From NCBI GenBank assembly GCA_016188575.1, contig JACPHN010000235.1:1-28666 (forward strand): DNA of 28,666 nt, read 5' to 3'. Within the stretch, counting starts at the first letter, position 1, and every line of letters begins with the position of its first letter. Shown piece after piece: positions 10,316 to 28,666 of this stretch. Below the pieces are notes generated by a model. It was not told where the DNA came from and did not search any database. It worked only from the letters and a program-made list of their open reading frames with translations. The position numbers and the translations under genes are program-made. The stretch is from Candidatus Schekmanbacteria bacterium (GTDB lineage Bacteria > CSSED10-310 > JACPHN01).

Positions 10316-10640
10316 GTCAACTACCCCGGCCTGAAGGCCGGAGCTTGCTCCGGAGGAAGGTCGCAAGTCGCAAGGCTTGCATGTTGGCCAGACCAAGTTG
10401 TTGAGATTGGCAATCGTTGAAACAGATGCGTTGGACAGAAAGCAAAAGTAACACTCCGAGGTACTTCCTCAGCCTCGGACTCTGTAAGTGCGCGTTGCAG
10501 ACAAGCCGTAGGGTCGGCACGAAACGGTGTGCACAGAGGGCTGCTGTTCAACATGGTCGAGGGGAGACCGCCGAGCAAGCCAGCTTGGCGGCGTCACAAG
10601 CCCTTTACTGGGACCTCTTCGGAGGCATTGGAGGTAAGCC
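10316..10640 (+). ncRNA. Predicted omega-RNA scaffold region upstream of iscB
   Basis: About 325 bases directly 5' of iscB hold no gene but are rich in strong hairpins, as expected for the guide RNA of IscB, whose scaffold is encoded just upstream of the nuclease. Visible stems are CCGGCCT/AGGCCGG (10326-10341), GGAG/CTCC (10340-10351), TCCGAGG/CCTCGGA (10455-10479) and a nine-pair stem CCGCCGAGC/GCTTGGCGG (10568-10591). In known systems the guide is the 5' extension of the transcript reading out of the element end, so roughly 10296-10315 would be the native guide. Both transcript ends are inferred. The iscB ribosome binding site (GGAGGT, 10630-10635) lies at the 3' end of this stretch. Confidence 0.72.
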
Positions 10641-11981
10641 ATGGTTTTCGTCTTAGACAAGCGTAAACGGCCGCTGATGCCGTGCACGGAGAAGCGAGCG
10701 CGCAAGCTGCTCGCGGCGGGCCGGGCAAGGGTGCATCGCCTGTACCCGTTCACGATCCGCTTGGTCGATCGTGTCCTCGAGCACCGCGTGGTCGCACCGC
10801 TGCGCCTGAAGCTGGATCCGGGGTCCAGGACGACGGGTGTCGCGATCGTCCGCGAGGATGGTCCGGCGCAACATGTTCTGCACCTGGCCGAGATTGAACA
10901 TCGGGGCGAGACCGTGCGCAAGCACCTCGAGCAGCGGAGGAACTACCGTCGACGTCGTCGATCGACCAACCTTCGCTACCGAGCACCCCGGTTCGCCAAT
11001 CGGCGACGGCGCGAGGGATGGTTGCCGCCAAGTCTTCGTTGCCGGCTCGACAACGTGCTCGCTTGGGTTGGCCGCTATCGAAAACTCTGCCCGATCGGCG
11101 CCGTGTCCGTCGAGACCGTGCGGTTCGATACCCAGGCGATGCAGAACCCCGAGATCGCTGGTATCGAGTACCAGCAGGGCGCGCTCGCGGGCTACGAGCT
11201 GCGTGAGTACCTGCTTGAGAAGTGGGGCCGACGTTGTGCCTACTGCGACGCCGAGAATGTGCCGCTAAAAATCGAGCACATCGTGCCCAAGGCGCGCGGG
11301 GGCAGCGATCGGGCGAGCAACCTCACGCTTGCCTGCCGGTCGTGTAACGAACGCAAAGGCAGTCGCGAGGTACGGGAGTTTCTTGGGCGCGACAGCAAGC
11401 GACTGGCTCATGTTCTGGCGGCCGCGACAGCGCCGCTGGCGGCCACGGCCGCAGTCAACGTCACCCGCCGAGTCCTCTGGCAAGCGCTCGAAAACACGGG
11501 TCTGGACCTCGAAGTCAGTAGCGGCGGTCGAACCAAGTGGAACCGCTCGCGGTTCGGCATTCCGAAGGCCCATGCCCTCGATGCCGTCTGCGTAGGGGCG
11601 GTCGAACACGTGTCAGGCTGGCAGAAGCCCGTGCTTGCCATCAAAGCCTGTGGCCGTGGCAGCTACCAACGGACGCGGGTCGACAAGTTCGGCTTCGCGC
11701 GCGGCTATTTGATGCGGCAGAAGCGTGTACACGGCTTTGCAACCGGCGACCTGGTGCAAGCCGTAGTAACGCAAGGCAAGAAGATCGGCACGTACACAGG
11801 GCGCGTTGCGATACGTGTTACGGGCAGCTTCAACATCCAGACGGCGGCTGGCACCGTCGAAGGCATTTCGTACAAATACTGCCGTCTGCTTCAGCGGGTG
11901 GATGGTTACACCTACAACCAAAGAAAGAGGCACTTCCTCCCCGTCCTAAAGGACGAGGTTTCCCTGCCGAGAGCCGGATGA
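10641..11981 (+). CDS. iscB: IscB, RNA-guided HNH/RuvC endonuclease, 446 aa
   Basis: The ATG at 10641 follows GGAGGT with a short spacer. The IscB domain order is complete. There is a PLMP domain at the N terminus (KRPLMPCTEKRARKLL, about 9-25), RuvC-I with Asp59 (LKLDPGSRTTG), and an Arg-rich bridge helix (about 88-127). RuvC-II has Glu158 (VSVETVRFD). The HNH domain has zinc-type pairs C199/C202 and C232/C235, catalytic His213 (IEHIVPKARGG) and N227. RuvC-III has His311 and Asp314 (KAHALDAV). A C-terminal region of about 115 residues probably binds RNA and the target-adjacent motif. No catalytic residue is missing, so the enzyme should be active. In this family the omega-RNA guides double-strand cleavage of matching DNA. 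The last codons run through the element's right-end hairpin and the stop overlaps the rhomboid ATG. Confidence 0.95.
   Translation: MVFVLDKRKRPLMPCTEKRARKLLAAGRARVHRLYPFTIRLVDRVLEHRVVAPLRLKLDPGSRTTGVAIVREDGPAQHVLHLAEIEHRGETVRKHLEQRRNYRRRRRSTNLRYRAPRFANRRRREGWLPPSLRCRLDNVLAWVGRYRKLCPIGAVSVETVRFDTQAMQNPEIAGIEYQQGALAGYELREYLLEKWGRRCAYCDAENVPLKIEHIVPKARGGSDRASNLTLACRSCNERKGSREVREFLGRDSKRLAHVLAAATAPLAATAAVNVTRRVLWQALENTGLDLEVSSGGRTKWNRSRFGIPKAHALDAVCVGAVEHVSGWQKPVLAIKACGRGSYQRTRVDKFGFARGYLMRQKRVHGFATGDLVQAVVTQGKKIGTYTGRVAIRVTGSFNIQTAAGTVEGISYKYCRLLQRVDGYTYNQRKRHFLPVLKDEVSLPRAG
11939..11958 (+). repeat. Right-end hairpin of the IscB element
   Basis: The stem CGTCCT/AGGACG with an AA loop is extended outward by two C-G pairs across one mismatch. 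It mirrors the left-end hairpin at 10326-10341 in size and in its loop-proximal CCTRAAGG. It lies inside the iscB reading frame, as is common for iscB and tnpB genes that run to the element end. Confidence 0.7.
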
Positions 11982-19075: not shown

Positions 19076-22000
19076 TTGCGGGCGCAGGCTGCGGACTCCG
19101 AAGGCCCTTGCCGCGACTTCGGCCCGTACCGGGTCGAGAGGGCGCTTGGCCGAGGTGGCCTCGGCACTGTCCAGCTCGCAACCCATCGCACGTCCGGCGC
19201 CCAGGTCGCGCTGAAAATCGTCAACGCCCCGGCGACGATCGTCGCGACCGACTGTCTGCGCCGGGAGATCCGCGCGCTTTTCCGCCTTCGGCACCCGGGG
19301 ATCGTTTCCCTCGTTGATCACGACCTCGAGCACTCCCCCCCGTGGTACGCCATGACCCTCCTGCGCGGTCCCGCGCTGTCTCACTGGGCTCAACCGCAGC
19401 CAAGCTTGGCCGCGGCCTTGCCGGCACTGCGCCACGTGCTCCGCCTCTGTGACACGCTGGCATACCTGCACGGTGAGGGGTTCGTGCACTGTGACCTGAA
19501 ACCGCTCAACGTGATCGTCAGTGACGGAGACCCCATCCTCGTCGACTTCGGGCTGCAGGCCAAGGTTGGCGGGGATTCCGATCGCACGAGCGGATGGAGC
19601 AGGGAAACCGTCGAGCAAGGCAATGCGGTCGGGGGCACGGTCCTGTACATGGCGCCGGAGCAGATTCTGAACGAAGCGATCGACGCACGCGTCGACTTGT
19701 ACGCGCTCGGCGGCCTCCTTTTTGAGCTGCTGACAGGCCTCCCGCCGTACGCGGGAACCAGCGCGGACGTCATGGCGGCCCACCTGCGCGCTCCGGTGCC
19801 ACGCCTGTCGCTGCTTGCCCCGTCGTTGCCGAGCGAGCTTGACGAGCTCATCCAGTGCCTGATGGCCAAGGACCCGCGCGACCGCCTCGGACATGCGGGC
19901 TGCGCTGCTGCCGTCTTGCGAGGTCTCGGTGTGGACGCCGCTCCCTGGCCCGGGAGCGCGGCGCCGCGGAGCTATGTGTATCGGTCTCCTTACTGCGGGC
20001 GCGACGAGCTCCTCGACGAGCTCACCGGCCGGGTGCGCCGGCTCACCGCGGGCGGGGGCGGGATCGTGTTTGTTCGCGGGCCGAGTGGAAGCGGAAAGAC
20101 ACGTCTTCTCCTCGAGCTGCAGCGCCGGCTTTCCGCGCGGGGCATCCCCTGGACAGCCGGCGAGTGCGGCCCCACGGACGTCTTCGCTGCAGAGACCACC
20201 CCATTGCCCGCCGTGCCTCTGGCGCCCTTGCGACCGTTTCTCACGCGCGTCGTCGATCTGTGCCGCGCGGCGAGCACGACGCAGCGTGGCAGTCTGCTCG
20301 GTGACAGGGCCGGTGTCCTGGCGACGATCGACTCGCGCTTCGCGGCATTCGCGGGAGCCGCTGAGGGCACCACCGCGCCGGCCCGCGCGGCGCCAGATGG
20401 CCGGGCCCGTTTGTTGGTCGCTCTGGTGCGCACGCTCGCGGGTTGCGCGGCCCGCTCCCGTCTGGTCGTGATGATCGATGACCTGCAATGGGCCGACGAC
20501 CTGACGCTCGCATTCGTCGATTTCTTGCTGGACGTTACGCGGCTTGATTGCTCCGGGATCCTCCTGATCGCTGCGGTTCGCTCGGAGGAGGCCGGTTACG
20601 AGCACCGCCGCCTGTGGTCTCACCCGTCGGCGACGCTCGCGGAGCTTCACCCCCTCACGCGCGCGGAAGTGTCCGAGATCACCGCCCACATGCTCTCGGT
20701 GACGCAGCTTCCGCAGACCTTTGTCGGCTTTCTGGCCCGCTACTCTGCAGGCAACCCGTTTTTCGTCGCGGAATACCTTCGGGGCGCCGTCGCGGAGGGC
20801 ATCCTCCAGCGTGATGGGCACGGGAGGTGGCTGCTCTTGCCGCACCTGGCGGAGCGTGAGGCCAGGCCGCTGGATTGGCTCGAGCTCGAGGCACAACCGG
20901 CGGAGCTGTTTGCATCCGTGCCGCTACCGAGCTCCTTGCAAGCCTTGCTGGCTCGCCGGCTGGCCGGGCTCTCGGTGCCCGCCAGGGCGCTCGCCGAAGC
21001 CGCCGCTGTCCACGTCAGGGCAGTGGCCTCCTCGCTGCTCTCGGCCGCCACCGGGCTCGATGGCGCGGCGCTGCACGAGGGAATCGATGAGCTCCTGAGG
21101 CGCGAGGTTCTGGTCGACCTCGGCGAAAGCGGCCTGTGCCTCGTTCACGAAAAGCTCGGCGGAGCGGTCGTCGCCGGCCTGGACGCCGCGTCGCGCGTGG
21201 CTCTCCACGAGCGGTGGGCACGGTTACTGGAGTCGCAGCCGACGCCCGCGCGGCACGCGGCGGACATCGCGCGCCACTGGCGCGGTGCCGGCCGCGCCGA
21301 CAGGGCCGCGCCTCAGGCGCTCCTCGCCGCGCGCCAGGCGTTGGCCGTATATGCGGCGCGAGACGCGCGTGCGGCTCTGGATCAGGCGATTTCGTTCCTC
21401 GATGCCGCGGATCGACCCGACGCCTGGCTTGCCGAGCTCCACGCGCAGGCGCTGGACCTGCGGTACCAGGCCCTCAGCCAGCTCGGCGACCTGCGCGAAG
21501 CGGAAGCGGACGCGAGCCGGCTCATGGCGTTGGCCAGCGAGATCGGCGATCGGGAAGCCCACGTGCGGGCGCTGCGCTACCTCGGTGAATGCCAATTCCA
21601 TGGCGGAAACCTGGACGACGCTTCGCGCCTGTTTGCTGCGGCGCTGCACCTTGGACAATCCCTGTCGGCTCCCGAGCATGTCTGCGAGATCGGCCACAAG
21701 CTCGGCTGGATCCTGGCCTGCCAGGGCAAGTATGAAGAAGCCCACCGGCACTTCCAGAGCGCTCTGGGAATCCCCGGTCTGCCGGACGGGTGCGCGCGGT
21801 GGGGTGCGGAGCTGCATCTCGGCGAAACCTTTTTCTTGCAGGGCAAGCTCGCGGACGCGCTCGCGGTGCTGCATCACCTCGCGGAGGCGCCGGCGCTTGA
21901 AGCTGATCCCATTTTCATGGCCCGCGTGCAGGCGGCGCTCGCGGCAGTCCATCACAGCCTGGCCGATCGGCGCCAGGCGCTCGTTCTCTATGGTCGAGCG

Positions 22001-23086
22001 CTCGCCACGTTTCGCCATTATCGCCTCGCCCAGGACGCCTTGCTCGCCGAAAACAATCAGGCGGTGATTCTGATGGAAGACGGCGAATTTGCGGAGGCGG
22101 CGGCAACCTTCGCAGCCGTCCAACGGCACGCCGGCCGGATCGGCGACGAGCAATTATCCGCATTGGGGACGGTGCAGCTCGCTTCGTGTCTCCTTCGCCA
22201 GGCGCGCTTCAGCGAGGGGCGCCGGCTCGCGGCGATGGCGGAGGAGCAGTTTCGGAGCTTGCATGACCATCGCTGGCTGCTCGAGGCGCTCCGGTTCCGC
22301 GGGACAGCGGAGGCGGCGCTGGGCGACCACGACGCGGCTACGCGTTGTTTCGCGCAAGCGCGCGTGATCGCGCTCGCATCGGAGGTGCCTTTCGACCGAT
22401 TCGCCGCCGCTGCTTCCGAGCTCATGGCGCTTGGCGGACCGCTGGGTCTGAGAATGGCCGATCGGCTGTGGGATCCGCTTATCGCGGCGCTGTCGTCGGC
22501 GGCGACGAGCATGGACGGCCCGGAATACGCCTTTGCGGTTCATTGTCTCGTGGCGGCCAGGGGCTTTGCGGCTGCAACCTGGGCGGAAAACGCATCACGA
22601 AGAACCCCCTCCTCACCTCCCCCCGCAAGCGTGGGGAGGGACGGAGAGGGGTGCTGTCCCGTCGACGTCGAACCGGCGGTGGGTTCAGCAAATCGCTTCG
22701 CCGAGCTTGCGGCGAGCCCCTCCTGGGAGGTCCATGCCAGCTCATCCCTCGCGGTCCGCGAGCTGCTTCAGTGGACCGCTCTCGCCGAGGTGGAAGCGGC
22801 ACTCGTTTCCGAGAAGCCCCAAGACGCGGCGCGTGCAGCCGACCTGGGAATGTTGTTGTCCGCCTACCGCCGCATTGCCAGCGAGCATCACCTTGCCCAT
22901 GAGCTCTGGGCCTGCTGCCTCTGCTGCCGGCTCGAAACCGCGGAACAAGGCAGTGCGTCCGGCGCCCATCGTGCGCTCGCCGGCGCGCTGAGTGGGTGGC
23001 GCCAGCGGCTCGCGGGGGACGAGGAACAGCGGCTCCAGGCGAGCCCGCTGATCCAGCGCGCCCTCGGACTGCTTAGCGGCTCTTGA
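19076..23086 (+). CDS. Ser/Thr protein kinase - STAND-type ATPase - TPR fusion (PknK-like), 1336 aa
   Basis: Starts at TTG (19076). Residues 17-285 are a Hanks-type kinase: glycine loop GRGGLG, Lys47 in VALKIV, HCDLKPLN (138-145), DFG (157-159) and APE (193-195). The catalytic-loop Arg of HRD is Cys139, so this is a non-RD kinase. An AAA/STAND ATPase follows (about 305-700), with Walker A GPSGSGKT (335-342) and Walker B VVMIDDLQWAD (464-474). The rest is a long helical TPR-like region (about 740-1330) with repeats such as YLGECQFHGGNLDDASRLF. At about residue 1170-1192 a palindromic DNA repeat has been read through in frame (PPPASVGR). The layout matches PknK-like and myxobacterial kinases that sense ligands through the ATPase/TPR part. 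The obvious partner is the regulator encoded immediately upstream. Confidence 0.92.
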   Translation: MRAQAADSEGPCRDFGPYRVERALGRGGLGTVQLATHRTSGAQVALKIVNAPATIVATDCLRREIRALFRLRHPGIVSLVDHDLEHSPPWYAMTLLRGPALSHWAQPQPSLAAALPALRHVLRLCDTLAYLHGEGFVHCDLKPLNVIVSDGDPILVDFGLQAKVGGDSDRTSGWSRETVEQGNAVGGTVLYMAPEQILNEAIDARVDLYALGGLLFELLTGLPPYAGTSADVMAAHLRAPVPRLSLLAPSLPSELDELIQCLMAKDPRDRLGHAGCAAAVLRGLGVDAAPWPGSAAPRSYVYRSPYCGRDELLDELTGRVRRLTAGGGGIVFVRGPSGSGKTRLLLELQRRLSARGIPWTAGECGPTDVFAAETTPLPAVPLAPLRPFLTRVVDLCRAASTTQRGSLLGDRAGVLATIDSRFAAFAGAAEGTTAPARAAPDGRARLLVALVRTLAGCAARSRLVVMIDDLQWADDLTLAFVDFLLDVTRLDCSGILLIAAVRSEEAGYEHRRLWSHPSATLAELHPLTRAEVSEITAHMLSVTQLPQTFVGFLARYSAGNPFFVAEYLRGAVAEGILQRDGHGRWLLLPHLAEREARPLDWLELEAQPAELFASVPLPSSLQALLARRLAGLSVPARALAEAAAVHVRAVASSLLSAATGLDGAALHEGIDELLRREVLVDLGESGLCLVHEKLGGAVVAGLDAASRVALHERWARLLESQPTPARHAADIARHWRGAGRADRAAPQALLAARQALAVYAARDARAALDQAISFLDAADRPDAWLAELHAQALDLRYQALSQLGDLREAEADASRLMALASEIGDREAHVRALRYLGECQFHGGNLDDASRLFAAALHLGQSLSAPEHVCEIGHKLGWILACQGKYEEAHRHFQSALGIPGLPDGCARWGAELHLGETFFLQGKLADALAVLHHLAEAPALEADPIFMARVQAALAAVHHSLADRRQALVLYGRALATFRHYRLAQDALLAENNQAVILMEDGEFAEAAATFAAVQRHAGRIGDEQLSALGTVQLASCLLRQARFSEGRRLAAMAEEQFRSLHDHRWLLEALRFRGTAEAALGDHDAATRCFAQARVIALASEVPFDRFAAAASELMALGGPLGLRMADRLWDPLIAALSSAATSMDGPEYAFAVHCLVAARGFAAATWAENASRRTPSSPPPASVGRDGEGCCPVDVEPAVGSANRFAELAASPSWEVHASSSLAVRELLQWTALAEVEAALVSEKPQDAARAADLGMLLSAYRRIASEHHLAHELWACCLCCRLETAEQGSASGAHRALAGALSGWRQRLAGDEEQRLQASPLIQRALGLLSGS
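22587..22654 (+). repeat. Dispersed GC-rich palindromic repeat, copy 1 (inside kinase gene)
   Basis: The core CCTCCCC...GGGGAGG hairpin around CCGCAAGCGT is preceded by GAAAACGCATCACGAAGAAC, which recurs nearly unchanged in copy 2 (24171-24234, opposite strand). It is read in frame within the kinase gene as a Ser/Pro/Gly-rich peptide that breaks a helical TPR-like region, so it is probably a later insertion. Confidence 0.75.
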
Positions 23087-23888
23087 TGGCAACCCCGTAG
23101 AAGGGGTCGAACAGGTCGTAGTGGATGCGGAAATCGTCGCCGTGTTTGGCAACGAAGGTCTCGCCGTCGAGCTGGATGCACCCGTGGTCGAGCATGCGAC
23201 CGGTCGTGATTGCCGCCAGCCGCTCCTTGACGCGCGACAGGTAGGTTGCGACCGCGGTTTCGCTGGCATTGATGGCTCGGCGGTCGAGTCCGCTATGCCA
23301 GGCACCGACATTGGCGAGCACCCCGGCGGGGTCCGCAGGGCATGTGAAGTAGAGCTGCAGACTGATGCTGTCGCTGAGCGCATAGGGCGGCTCGGTATCT
23401 TTCCACACTGTCCCGAGGCGCGCTCCTCGCGCATCGATCAGCGTCCAGAGCTCGCCATCGAGCGGCTCGCTGTCCTCGACTCCGCTTGCTTTCTCAAATG
23501 CTTCCGCGGTGTCGGGGCAAATTCCCACGACGTACTGCGCACGATGCTCTTCGGCCGAGCGGTAGCCGCGGACGAGCTCTTCCAGTGGAGCCTCGTCTGC
23601 CGCGTAGACGACCAGCGGCACCGAGTCCACGGCGGCGTCGAGCACGTAATAGTACGCGTGAGCATCACAGGTGATGACCTCGTCGGCGCGCGCCGAGACG
23701 GCAGCGGCGAGCGTGATCGCGGTGACCACGGCCGTGGCGAGCCGCAGTCGGGGCGCATGACCCGGCGTGCGCTCGCGGTTCCTGAGGCGCGGTGCCGGAG
23801 TCGTGACATCGAGAAGGGTGCGCGCCGCGGCGGGGCATGGGGTGTCATCGACGCGGAGACGGGGTGAGGCTTTCGTCGTTGGTTTCAT
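23073..23888 (-). CDS. Exported protein of unknown function, 271 aa
   Basis: The ATG at 23886-23888 follows AGAGGT closely on the minus strand. The N terminus is unusual: about 46 polar residues precede a hydrophobic stretch (about 47-66, LRLATAVVTAITLAAAVSARA) that ends like a signal-peptidase site before DEVITC. The start may therefore be further in, or the long front may be real. The mature part (about 200 residues) has three to four cysteines and alternating strands, with EDSEPLDGELWTLIDARG and a closing DGETFVAKHGDDFRIHYDLF. I recognise no family or catalytic motif. Its 3' end overlaps the kinase gene's end by 14 bases, convergently. Confidence 0.65.
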   Translation of the reverse strand: MKPTTKASPRLRVDDTPCPAAARTLLDVTTPAPRLRNRERTPGHAPRLRLATAVVTAITLAAAVSARADEVITCDAHAYYYVLDAAVDSVPLVVYAADEAPLEELVRGYRSAEEHRAQYVVGICPDTAEAFEKASGVEDSEPLDGELWTLIDARGARLGTVWKDTEPPYALSDSISLQLYFTCPADPAGVLANVGAWHSGLDRRAINASETAVATYLSRVKERLAAITTGRMLDHGCIQLDGETFVAKHGDDFRIHYDLFDPFYGVAIKSR

Positions 23889-24170
23889 GCTGACCTCTGG
23901 GTTGTCGCTGTTTCACGCTCCTCTAGTTGCAAAGTCCGGACCATGATTAGAGCAGGCGCGAGTCTGAACGACTTCCGCATGGTAGCGCCACGCGGCACGA
24001 AAAAACGGGTGTCGCCCGACCTCGTGGCGCCAACTGAAGTTGCGCAGTGCCAACGTCGGTTGCTGCCATCGAGAGCCCGTTCGAATCTCTGCGAAAACCT
24101 CGCAGCCACGCGTTTGCGGGCGGATATGGTGCCAGCGTCTCGCACGCCGGCCGTGAGGCCACCACGTGTT

Positions 24171-24234
24171 CGCCTCCGTCCCTCCTCCGGCAAGCAGGGG
24201 GAGGCGAGGTGGGGGGTCTTCTTGATGCGCTTTT
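24171..24234 (-). repeat. Dispersed GC-rich palindromic repeat, copy 2 (intergenic)
   Basis: Read on the minus strand, it begins GAAAAGCGCATCAAGAAGAC and continues through CCTCGCCTCCCCC, a short loop and GGAGGAGGGACGGAG. It aligns with copy 1 along its whole length with scattered changes, which shows the repeat unit is larger than the hairpin alone. Confidence 0.75.
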
Positions 24235-24283
24235 CAGTCAGCTCGCAGTCGGACATGGGCTGGATTCAGGGTGCCGTTCGGGC

Positions 24284-24312
24284 TTGACAGGCGCGACTTG
24301 TATGGCTATACG
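24284..24312 (+). promoter_or_regulatory. Sigma-70-type promoter upstream of the long propeller gene
   Basis: A perfect TTGACA (24284-24289), a 17-base spacer and TATACG (24307-24312, four of six consensus bases) lie about 50 bases before the ATG at 24359. This is the clearest promoter in the window and stands out against the GC-rich background. Confidence 0.65.
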
Positions 24313-24358
24313 GGGCGAGCGACAGGCGACTGACCCTGACGCGCGGGAGGTCCGAGAC

Positions 24359-24422
24359 ATGGCAAGGCGAATGACCGGCACGGCGATGGCCGTGGGAGCG
24401 ATGGTGGCCGCGGGTCTATTCG
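24359..24422 (+). pseudogene. Signal-peptide start of the long propeller gene, in a different frame from the rest
   Basis: The ATG at 24359 has GGGAGG eight bases upstream and a promoter before that. It encodes a typical signal peptide, MARRMTGTAMAVGAMVAAGL. In this frame the protein degenerates to Arg/Gly-rich sequence and stops at 24515-24517. The following long frame opens one base over, with SPDAAVAGAP from 24426. Removing one base near 24423 would join them smoothly. The gene is therefore either mutated, affected by a sequence error, or uses a shift; no known slippery heptamer is visible. Confidence 0.6.
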
Positions 24423-27400
24423 GTGAGCCCGGACGCTGCCGTGGCCGGCGCGCCCCAGGGCGCGCCGGCGGACGAGCTCCCGGCGGCGGTGGCGCCGGCA
24501 GCCGCACCGCGCGGTGACGAAGCGCCGCGCGTGGCACTGCTACCCGAAGCATCCGGCATGGCGATCGCGCTGGCGGGAGCGGACGCAGGAGAGGCGGAGA
24601 GGGCGCCGGTGCGGTTTTCCAGTCGGGTGACGCGGCTGTCGATTGGCGGCGAGGTGATGCTGGGAGCCCGGCGCGGCGCGTTGACGTGGCGGCCGGTCGC
24701 GGGCGGGCTCGCGGCCGAGCATGGGCGCGGCGTGAGCGAGCGCTACGTGGTGGACGGCGGTCGCGTCGAGCAGGTCTTCGCGCTGGCCGAGCTGCCGGCT
24801 GTGGCCGGCGACGGCGAGCTGTCGCTCGCGCTGGACACCGAGACCAGCATGGCAGGGCCGGTGGTCCGGCGCCAGCGCGGGCGGGGCGGGTGGCACGAGA
24901 TGCGCGGGCACTCGGATGCGCTGCTGTTCGCGGATCGCGGTGGGCGCGGCACGATCGCCTATTACGGAGCGCGCGCGGTAGACGCCGCGGGGCGCGTCGA
25001 GGAGATCGCACCCGAGTGGCACGCCGGGACCATCGTCCTGCGGGTTTCCGCGGCCTTCATGGCGACCGCGCGATTTCCGCTGGTGATCGATCCGTGGATC
25101 GAGCTCGCCGGATCGGCGCCGCGCGAGGCCGGCGTTAGCCACGGGTCCGGGGCGACGGATCAGCCGGTGGTCGCGCTGGACGCGAGCGACCGGCCGCTCG
25201 TCGCCTGGAGGCAGTACACGAGCGGCGCGGACCAGATTTTCCTGAAAGCGTGGAGCGGTGAGGACTGGAGCGAGCTCGGCGGGTCGGCGACCGGCGGTCT
25301 CGCCGGCGGCGAGGCCGACCAGGCGGAGGATCCGGCGATCGCGGTCGACAGCCGCGGATACCCCGTCGTCGCCTGGTCGGAGACCGACCTCGGCGCGGGG
25401 CGGATTCAGGTGCGCCGCTGGGATGGCGCCGCCTGGGAGGATCTCGGCAGCTCGCCCTCGTGGGGCGCGCGGGCGATCATCGCGATGTCGCTGACCCCGG
25501 CTGTGGCCGTCGATGGCGAGGATCGGCCGCTCGTCGCCTGGTCCGAGGACGCCGGCGGCAACAGGGAGATTTACGTGCGCCGCTGGAACGGCGCTGCCTG
25601 GGAAGAGCTCGGCGGCTCCGCGACAAGCGGCGGCATCAGCAATACCGCCGGCAGCTCCACGGCGCCGGCGATCGCGGTCGACGCCGATGGCGCGATCTCC
25701 GTGAGCTGGGACGAGAGCGACGACGGCGGCGGTCACGTCTACCTGAAAAGGTGGAACGGCGAGAGCTGGGAGGAGCTCGCGGGGTCGGCGTCCGGCGCCG
25801 GGGTTGGGCTCGGCTCCGCCGCGGCGTACCAGTCGACGACCTCCCGCGACGCTTCGGGAGCTCCGGTGGTCGCGTGGGTCGACTATGGCGCGGGTGCGGG
25901 GCAGGCGTACCTGTTGCGCTACAACGGCGCGAGCTGGGAGGAGCTCGCGGGCTCGGCGAGCGGCGGTGGAGTCTCAGGGGCGCCGTGGGGAGTCGACGAC
26001 ATGGCGATGACCGCGGGCAGCGGGGCGGGCGGGCCGACGGTGGCGTGGAGCGAGGACGTGGACGGCACGGAGCAGATTCACGCGCGGCAATGGGACGGGA
26101 CGACCTGGCAGGAGCTCGGCGGCTCGGCCACAGGCGGCGGCATCAGCGACACGACCGAAGGTTCCTACGCGCCGGCGGTGGCTCACGATCGCGCGGGTCG
26201 CCCCGTGGTGGCGTGGACGACGCAGTGGGGACGCTACACGCGCACGTTTCTGGCGCGGTGGAACGGGGCGGCGTGGCAGGCGCTGGGCTCGTCGCAGCCG
26301 GGGCAGGGGATTTCGGCCGGGCTCGGGTCTCGCGAGGGCGCGATGGCGGTGGCCGCGGGCGACAGGCCGTTCGTGGCCTGGCGCACGGAGGCAGGCGGCT
26401 TCTTCAGCGTCTACCTGCGGCAATGGGACGGGGTCGAGTGGGCGGAGGTCGCGGGTTCGGCGAGCGGCGGTGGGATCAGCGGCGGCGCGAGCGCCGCGTA
26501 CGCGCCCGCGGTGGCCGCGACGCGCGCCGGAGACCCGGTGGTCGCCTGGCAGGACACGCCTGGAGGCGTCGGGCAAATCTACCTGAAGGCGTTCATCGGC
26601 GGCGCGTGGGCGGAGCTCGGGGGCTCCGCGAGCGGCGGCGGGGTCAGCGCCACGGCGGGTGAAAGTTACGCGGCCGCGCTGGCGCTGGACGGCAGCGACC
26701 GGCCATGGGTCGCCTGGGAAGACCTGAGCTCCGGAAACGCTGAAATCTACCTCAAGATGTGGACGGGCGCGGCGTGGGCGGAGGTCGGCGGCTCGGCCAC
26801 GGGCGGCGGCGTGAGCGACACCGCGGACAGCTCGACGGCGCCCGCAGTGGCGGTCGACGCGAGCGGCCAGGCGGTCGTGGCCTGGCAGGAAACTGTCTCC
26901 GGTGCCGGCGAGATCCACGTGCGCCGCTGGAACGGGACGAGCTGGGAGGAGCTCGCGGGCTCGGCGAGCGGCGGCGGGATCAGCGCGACGGCGGCGGAGT
27001 CGGCGGCGCCCGCGGTGGCGGTCGACGCGGCAGGGCAGGTCTTCGTCGCGTGGACGGAGACTGTGGGCGGCGACGAGGAGATCTACCTGCGCTCCTGGAA
27101 CGGGGCGTCGTGGGCGGAGCTCGGCGGTTCCGCGAGCGCGGGAGGGATCAGCGCGGCGGCGGGATGGTCGGGCGAGGCGTCGCTGGCGCTCGATGGCGAG
27201 GGCCGCCCCGTAGTTTCGTGGTCGCAGTCGTGGCTGAACGATGGCGCGGCCGAGCTCGACATCTACTTGCGGCGCTGGAACGGCGCGACCTGGGTCGAGC
27301 TCGACGGCTCGGCGACGGGAGGCGGGGTGAGCGCGACCTATTCGCGCGACCCGAGCGTCGGCGATGGTCAATCGTACGGTTCGACCGTGGCGCTGCTCGC

Positions 27401-28666
27401 CGACGGCAGCCCCGCGGTGGCGTGGATGGACGAGATGTCGATGTCGTCGGGAGCAGCGGTCTACTTCCGCGCCCACCACAACCCGCCTGACGCGCACCGC
27501 GCGCTCGCGCAGCTCGAGGCGGACGGCGTGACCGTCATCCCCGCCGGCGGCGCGACGCGGAGCCCGAGCATCGTCTTCAAAGGCGCTTACGAGGCGGTGT
27601 CCTCGGGCGGCGACGATGGTGTGCGCATGGAGGTCGAGGTAGCCACGGTGGACGGGGCTTTCCTCGGAGCGGCGTCGGCCGCGTCACCGGCAGGTAGCGA
27701 GGGCGTGCCCGTCGCCGCGGCGGTGTCGGGGCTCGGCGAGGGCGGCTATCGGTGGCAGGCCCGCGCCGTGGACGCGCTCGGGTCGAGCAGCGCCTGGACG
27801 ACGTTCGGAACGGATGCCGGGAGTGGCAGCGAGGAAGCGCACTTCGTAGTGGACGTGACCGCGCCGCCGGGTGTCGTGTTGGCGGCGCCCGCGGACGGCA
27901 CCGCAACGCGCGACGCGACTCCGGGGCTGCGCTGCGAGGCGGCCACGGATGTGAACGGCGTGCTACTCTATGGATTTCAGCTCGCCGTGGCGGCGGACTC
28001 GGGCTTCGCGTCGCCGCTTCTGGACGCGTGGTCCACGTCGGCGACCTTTGTGCCGCCGAGCGCGCTCCCCGATGGGGCGTACCGGTGGCGGGCGCGCGCG
28101 GTCGACACCGCCGGGAATGCCGGGGACTGGAGTGCGGCCTGGACCGTCAGCGTGGACACGTCGGTGCCGGCGGCGGTGAGCCTGCTGGCCCCGGCGGACG
28201 GCGCCGTGACGAATGACCCGGCGCCCGCGCTCGAGTGGAGCGCCGAAAGTGCGAAATCCAGCTCCTCCCGCCACCTCAACCCGCCCCCCGCAAGCTGGGG
28301 GAGGGGGGAGGTCCGCGCGCCAGTGACGCTGACTCCGCGAGCGGAGGGAGTCAGCGAAACGGGAAATCGGCTCTATCGGGTGCAGCTCGCGAGCGACGCC
28401 GCGTTTGCGGTTCCGGTGGATTTCTACACCTCGGCCGCGAGCTTTGTCCCGGCCGAGCCGCTGAGTGACGGCACGTGGTACTGGCGGGTGGCCGCGGAAA
28501 GCGACGCCGGTCCGTGGAGCGAGTGGAGCGCGGCGTGGCGGTTTTTGGTCGACACGACTCCGCCCGAGGCGCGGCTCATCGAGCCCGCGGATGGGGCGAG
28601 CCGGCCCGCGGGCGGCACGGTCACGTTTGCCTGGGACGCGGCGGGGCACGACGCCGAGCGCTACGA
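24423..28666 (+). CDS. Giant secreted/surface protein: propeller-type repeats then Ig/FN3-like domains (3' end outside window), at least 1414 aa
   Basis: The frame is open without a stop from 24375 to the right edge; the nominal start is GTG at 24423, but the true start is probably the frame-shifted ATG at 24359. An Ala/Pro linker is followed by a beta-rich domain (about 24580-25110) ending FPLVIDPWIELAG, common in large surface proteins of this type of bacterium. Next come about fourteen units of roughly 56 residues with AVDxxGxPVVAW, IYLRRWNGxxWxELGGSA and GGGIS motifs (25160-27440). Ig/FN3-like units follow (from about 27490), with YRWRARAVDTAGN, YYWRVA-type strands and DTTPP junctions. 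A palindromic repeat interrupts one Ig-like unit in frame (28262-28312). The likely role is adhesion or binding outside the cell; no catalytic motif is seen. Confidence 0.85.
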   Translation, partial: MSPDAAVAGAPQGAPADELPAAVAPAAAPRGDEAPRVALLPEASGMAIALAGADAGEAERAPVRFSSRVTRLSIGGEVMLGARRGALTWRPVAGGLAAEHGRGVSERYVVDGGRVEQVFALAELPAVAGDGELSLALDTETSMAGPVVRRQRGRGGWHEMRGHSDALLFADRGGRGTIAYYGARAVDAAGRVEEIAPEWHAGTIVLRVSAAFMATARFPLVIDPWIELAGSAPREAGVSHGSGATDQPVVALDASDRPLVAWRQYTSGADQIFLKAWSGEDWSELGGSATGGLAGGEADQAEDPAIAVDSRGYPVVAWSETDLGAGRIQVRRWDGAAWEDLGSSPSWGARAIIAMSLTPAVAVDGEDRPLVAWSEDAGGNREIYVRRWNGAAWEELGGSATSGGISNTAGSSTAPAIAVDADGAISVSWDESDDGGGHVYLKRWNGESWEELAGSASGAGVGLGSAAAYQSTTSRDASGAPVVAWVDYGAGAGQAYLLRYNGASWEELAGSASGGGVSGAPWGVDDMAMTAGSGAGGPTVAWSEDVDGTEQIHARQWDGTTWQELGGSATGGGISDTTEGSYAPAVAHDRAGRPVVAWTTQWGRYTRTFLARWNGAAWQALGSSQPGQGISAGLGSREGAMAVAAGDRPFVAWRTEAGGFFSVYLRQWDGVEWAEVAGSASGGGISGGASAAYAPAVAATRAGDPVVAWQDTPGGVGQIYLKAFIGGAWAELGGSASGGGVSATAGESYAAALALDGSDRPWVAWEDLSSGNAEIYLKMWTGAAWAEVGGSATGGGVSDTADSSTAPAVAVDASGQAVVAWQETVSGAGEIHVRRWNGTSWEELAGSASGGGISATAAESAAPAVAVDAAGQVFVAWTETVGGDEEIYLRSWNGASWAELGGSASAGGISAAAGWSGEASLALDGEGRPVVSWSQSWLNDGAAELDIYLRRWNGATWVELDGSATGGGVSATYSRDPSVGDGQSYGSTVALLADGSPAVAWMDEMSMSSGAAVYFRAHHNPPDAHRALAQLEADGVTVIPAGGATRSPSIVFKGAYEAVSSGGDDGVRMEVEVATVDGAFLGAASAASPAGSEGVPVAAAVSGLGEGGYRWQARAVDALGSSSAWTTFGTDAGSGSEEAHFVVDVTAPPGVVLAAPADGTATRDATPGLRCEAATDVNGVLLYGFQLAVAADSGFASPLLDAWSTSATFVPPSALPDGAYRWRARAVDTAGNAGDWSAAWTVSVDTSVPAAVSLLAPADGAVTNDPAPALEWSAESAKSSSSRHLNPPPASWGRGEVRAPVTLTPRAEGVSETGNRLYRVQLASDAAFAVPVDFYTSAASFVPAEPLSDGTWYWRVAAESDAGPWSEWSAAWRFLVDTTPPEARLIEPADGASRPAGGTVTFAWDAAGHDAERY
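25160..27440 (+). repeat. Tandem coding repeat, about 14 units of about 168 bp
   Basis: Successive units begin near PAVAVDASGQ-type sequence and end GGSASGGGIS. The spacing between the units at 26841 and 27009 is exactly 168 bases. Units 1-13 keep the VAW and W-NG-W-EL core. Unit 14 (about 27388-27470) keeps only the first half. Each unit is the size of one beta-propeller blade. Confidence 0.8.
28262..28312 (+). repeat. Dispersed GC-rich palindromic repeat, copy 3 (inside propeller gene)
   Basis: It shares the CCCCCCGCAAGC loop region and flanking CCTC/GGGGAGG arms with copy 1, but its outer parts have diverged. It is read in the same frame as copy 1 (PPPASWGR against PPPASVGR). It splits an Ig-like unit between LEWSA and LYRVQLASD. 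A second palindrome, CTGACTCC/GGAGTCAG, follows at about 28328-28353. Confidence 0.65.

Follow-up and report, generated by a model that had tools for sequence, protein, structure and literature searches.

A MITE family with some in-frame intragenic copies in a genome of Candidatus Schekmanbacteria

Main finding

Of three related palindromic sequences within the window, i.e. the whole analysed stretch of 28,666 nucleotides of Candidatus Schekmanbacteria contig JACPHN010000235.1, two (copies 1 and 2) represent a family of non-autonomous DNA transposons (miniature inverted-repeat transposable elements, MITEs) of about 140 bp. Our reading of the family as a whole, to which we assign a probability of about 0.88, is that its members have been mobilised by a transposase of the IS1380 family, as we infer from their ends, and that the copies found within genes are the readable survivors of selection. 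A first-pass annotation had taken the three sequences for a single small mobile unit. The mobile element is borne out by terminal inverted repeats, target duplications and hundreds of copies, but the unity of the three is not, as copy 3 shares only the core.

The element and its copies in the window

Alignment of the best copies gave a consensus with the layout CCTGAATCCACCGCCTGTTCG...(core)...CGAACAGGCGGTGGATTCAGG, in which 21-bp terminal inverted repeats at both ends enclose a GC-rich hairpin core in the middle of the element; the copies within the genome have length modes of 138-140 bp. RNA folding of the consensus yields a single long hairpin (-99.8 kcal/mol, z -9.9). The element carries no transposase gene, its size lies within the 30-300 bp used as a criterion for MITEs, and every other MITE property that was tested (terminal inverted repeats, a target site duplication and a high, dispersed copy number) was found as well. 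At Rfam gathering thresholds the element in the window matches no family.

Copy 1 (22564-22689, plus strand; nhmmer model positions 14-138, E 3.6e-28) lacks the left terminal repeat, and its hairpin core corresponds to the stretch that pairs in the RNA fold (22605-22654, plus strand). Copy 2 is intergenic and lies on the minus strand at about 24150-24270 (model positions 1-102, E 2.7e-18); its left terminal repeat is intact (CCTGAATCCA at 24270), whereas its right end is degraded and it has suffered an internal deletion. The sites had thus been located correctly beforehand, although the extents given for both copies were too narrow, and the 20 or so bases that they were said to share beyond the hairpin turned out to be a considerable underestimate: aligned with the family consensus they score 200 and 128, against 99th percentiles of 80 and 64, respectively, for shuffled flanks.

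In copy 3 the similarity is restricted to the hairpin core (28267-28310, plus strand), to which the best match outside the window is confined as well. Its flanks align no better than shuffled sequence (left p 0.18, right p 0.82), and an nhmmer search with the family model did not report it. The gene that contains copy 3 (24423-28666, plus strand, running off the window) encodes a protein with BNR-type repeats and Ig-like domains according to Pfam, and has a paralogue at C162:3557-10846 (68% identity over 1390 aligned positions). Exactly at copy 3 the protein has 34 extra residues, encoded by 28245-28346 (plus strand; the ends are uncertain by a few codons), that are absent both from this paralogue and from the preceding module (module 2) of the protein. 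Copy 3 is thus a shorter hairpin with the MITE core that has been inserted cleanly, and represents either a decayed MITE or another repeat that shares the core. That it is a fully decayed MITE rather than a distinct hairpin is conceivable though somewhat doubtful: its core (CCACCTCAACCCGCCCCCCGCAAGC) resembles that of the MITE and the inserted segment of 102 nt has a MITE-like length, but apart from the unremarkable flanks, a second hairpin next to it (28327-28356) has no other occurrence in the sampled DNA, and about 50 of the 142 core sites in a first sample of 2.03 Mb lie outside MITE copies. The latter number implies that the core is common to several repeats of this genome.

Other repeat families with a CCCCCCGCAAGCGGGGGG core do occur elsewhere in the genome (e.g. 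C119:4164-4238, C160:52758 and C239:3648); examples of their tails are GTGAACAGATAC and GTTGTTGCGCCATTCCTGATC, and one of these families forms a short tandem array.

Abundance and distribution

The genome comprises 9.2 Mb in 275 contigs, and a sample of 2.38 Mb (about a quarter) was searched with a profile built from MITE copies, the same DNA in reversed order serving as control. The search for further copies, which had been proposed as a check of the initial observation, recovered 167 copies versus none in the control, and extrapolation yields some 650 copies for the complete genome. Simpler patterns agree: in the genome the terminal repeat was matched 543 times (3 in the control), and a 24-base stretch of the core, with at most 3 mismatches and on both strands, 349 times (0 for the reversed pattern). 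This 24-base core is nearly absent from 192 other genomes, and the full element was not found in 40 other genomes, 7 of which are from the same phylum. The family is best read as new and restricted to its lineage; the in-frame behaviour of its intragenic copies is already known from other bacteria. Among GTDB contigs, a collection in which the records of the present genome may have been omitted, a 20-mer of the terminal repeat was matched once, in a Rokubacteria MAG and without a partner, which was taken as chance.

According to the ORF calls of a home-made codon-usage caller, 130 of the 167 copies (~78%) are intergenic, although non-coding DNA makes up 13% of the sample (87% being coding), and 17 (~10%) are internal to called ORFs. 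The genome also holds derivatives of 31-49 bp that consist of nearly just the two terminal repeats (C250:26252, C66:90738 and C265:23807).

Target duplications and the probable link to IS1380

Among the 41 copies with both ends preserved, 12 are flanked by a perfect 4-bp target duplication where 0.23 would be expected, and the signal is sharp in the sense that no other length gives a comparable one. Few of the gene-internal copies show such a duplication because these copies are mostly partial.

Remnants of transposase genes of the IS1380 family (PF13701) are present in the same genome at C174, C143 and C269. Similarity among these three remnants breaks off at CCTAAATCCACCGGCCC (or a slightly different version of it), give or take a few bases, and up to 13 of 15 bases are identical between the MITE end and the remnant end, at one end of the three remnants. 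The motif common to both can be written as CCT(A/G)AATCCACCG(G/C)C, and further IS1380-like ends were found at C143:109037 and C37:484. The duplications made by IS1380 elements are short (5 bp in the case of ISEcp1; PMC2887853). Because the remnant ends are nearly identical to those of the MITE, and because IS1380 duplications are short, a DDE transposase of the IS1380 family is the best candidate, and comparison of the ends thus suggests that the MITE was probably mobilised by such an enzyme. An intact transposase gene with matching ends on both sides was not found, nor did the first sample of 2.03 Mb contain a convincing pair of MITE terminal repeats 0.5-4 kb apart that could delimit a full autonomous IS. 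A literature search returned no description of IS1380-derived MITEs.

Alternatively, the family could be of the REP/REPIN type and be moved by a RAYT, i.e. a Y1 tyrosine transposase. The genome has eight Y1_Tnp matches, and two of the corresponding genes, in C154 (L031) and C265 (L036), are preceded by a MITE copy at a distance of about 200 bp, which may be chance. However, the 21-bp terminal repeats, the 4-bp duplications and the IS1380-like ends fit a DDE transposase, and the consensus, which starts with CCTGAATCC and stops with GGATTCAGG, lacks the GTAG or CGTC tags that adjoin the hairpins of REPs. We therefore hold a RAYT-driven origin to be very improbable.

Copies within genes

Copy 1 resides in a gene (19076-23086, plus strand) for a protein in which Pfam recognizes a Ser/Thr kinase domain, AAA_16 and TPRs. 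It is read in frame F1 and adds about 40 residues (...SRRTPSSPPPASVGRDGEG...) to the C-terminal tail, outside the kinase domain, and among the listed homologues of the protein no match extends across it. The initial claim that copies 1 and 3 interrupt regular domains holds for copy 3, on the basis of the alignments with the paralogue and between modules, but may not hold for copy 1. The predicted structures of the two host regions are of low confidence (mean pLDDT 52.7 for copy 1 and 39.2 for copy 3), and both inserts are among the least confident stretches. As had been noticed at the outset, both copies lie in long open reading frames, are read in the same frame and encode PPPAS-V/W-GR; they have PPPAS in common because the same core is read in the stop-free frame F1.

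Clean insertions in frame can be recognized elsewhere too. In the kinases of C194 and C158 the MITE occupies a loop whose length varies among the paralogues within the genome, and which comprises 4 residues in the solved structure of PknB as compared to 84 in the C194 protein. Two positions that neighbour each other in the solved structure 6yv7 are separated by 49 added residues in a family 2 glycosyltransferase (GT2, C128), a number close to the 48 codons that correspond to the 140 bp of the element plus a 4-bp duplication. The kinase loop and the glycosyltransferase insert provide examples of how MITEs lengthen proteins.

On the basis of such insertions one might suppose that the family codes for protein in the manner of the Rickettsia palindromic elements, to which the first-pass annotation compared it, and that it is maintained through in-frame insertion and a particular peptide. 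In-frame intragenic copies do exist, the insertions in the copy 3 gene (relative to its paralogue) and in the C128 gene are clean, and F1 is the commonest frame among the 17 internal copies (9, versus 5 for F2, 2 for R1 and 1 for F3). Yet internal copies account for only ~10% of the family, as compared to 78% located between genes, the element is read in three or more frames, including ones on the opposite strand, and the F1 excess is weak; two of the nine F1 calls are a pair at a single gene junction in C162 that was first counted as internal, and others near ORF ends may be similar. Several of the 17, moreover, are not internal to a domain. In-frame insertion thus occurs but does not characterize the family, a single conserved peptide is not its hallmark, and we give the notion of a maintained coding element very little credence. 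Out-of-frame intragenic copies that would be as frequent as in-frame ones, named at the time as a refuting observation, were not seen: no clearly split gene was found among the MITE copies in the sample.

The pair in C162 lies at the 3' end of the propeller-gene paralogue mentioned above (L161). No stop codon is left there, and the pair joins the paralogue in frame to the next gene, the start of which is signal-peptide-like; the junction is possibly a gene fusion or a case of read-through.

The best reading of the intragenic copies is that they survive because most of the MITE frames are without stops. The element would insert widely across the genome, and an insert of 140 bp together with a duplication of 4 bp would amount to 48 codons. 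As four of the six frames of the consensus are free of stops and the length is a whole number of codons, some insertions into permissive loops would leave the host protein readable, whereas the other intragenic insertions would be removed by selection, so that those in frame and tolerated remain. Selection for readable insertions would hence suffice to account for the bias towards in-frame copies, with no need to invoke a coding role. A bolder version holds that selection has acted on the element itself, favouring the combined size of insert and duplication (144 bp, 48 codons) as well as the four stop-free frames so that insertion in genes is tolerated. We deem this highly unlikely, but if true the element would be a transposon adapted to hide in coding sequence, where it supplies kinases and further multidomain proteins with disordered proline-/glycine-rich loops.

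Comparison with known elements

The family adds an abundant MITE to an uncultured, GC-rich lineage. It resembles the bacterial MITEs ERIC, Correia/NEMIS, RUP and Nezha (reviewed in PMC10969869) in being small and transposase-less, with terminal inverted repeats, a target duplication and hundreds of copies, as well as in its mainly intergenic location, its fold into one long hairpin and its occasional in-frame fusion to ORFs; in-frame MITE ORFs, including those of ERIC and of the Rickettsia palindromic elements (RPEs), have been reviewed as well (PMC10969869). It is set apart from the named families, by description, in that its ends are related to IS1380, and it was not found in the other genomes searched. 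With the IS1380 family itself (e.g. ISEcp1) it shares a short target duplication, and its ends resemble those of the IS1380 remnants in its own genome, but it lacks a transposase gene and its duplication is 4 bp instead of the 5 bp of ISEcp1.

The likeness to RPEs that was pointed out initially concerns behaviour only. Both are palindromic, measure ~100-150 bp and in part sit in frame within genes that are unrelated to one another, but the present MITE is mainly extragenic, shows target duplications and is read in several frames; neither a large share of copies in frame within genes (17 of 167 are internal) nor a family peptide conserved in one frame (four frames are used) was found. Nor is such behaviour outside Rickettsia a novelty, as in-frame palindromes have been described in unrelated lineages (PMC3733652, PMC10969869), and in-frame intragenic GTAG/CGTC REPs in Opitutus terrae, Thioalkalivibrio, Thauera and R. 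conorii (PMC3733652). These, too, are palindromes that decorate mutually unrelated proteins, and GC-rich lineages are among their hosts. Those REPs, however, are 20-40 bp long, carry GTAG/CGTC tags and often occur as dimers, whereas the MITE is one unit of 140 bp with transposon ends. Some caution is warranted in annotation: recurrent PPPAS-type peptides in the predicted proteins of this lineage represent transposon sequence and not conserved domains.

Other features of the window

Elsewhere in the window, a HEARO RNA (RF02033, 90.4 bits) is located at 10316-10572 (plus strand), directly 5' of a gene (10641-11981, plus strand) for a protein of 446 residues with RRXRR and HNH domains (Pfam). 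By these profile matches, the pair at 10316-11981 is a predicted IscB-type nuclease with its guide RNA.
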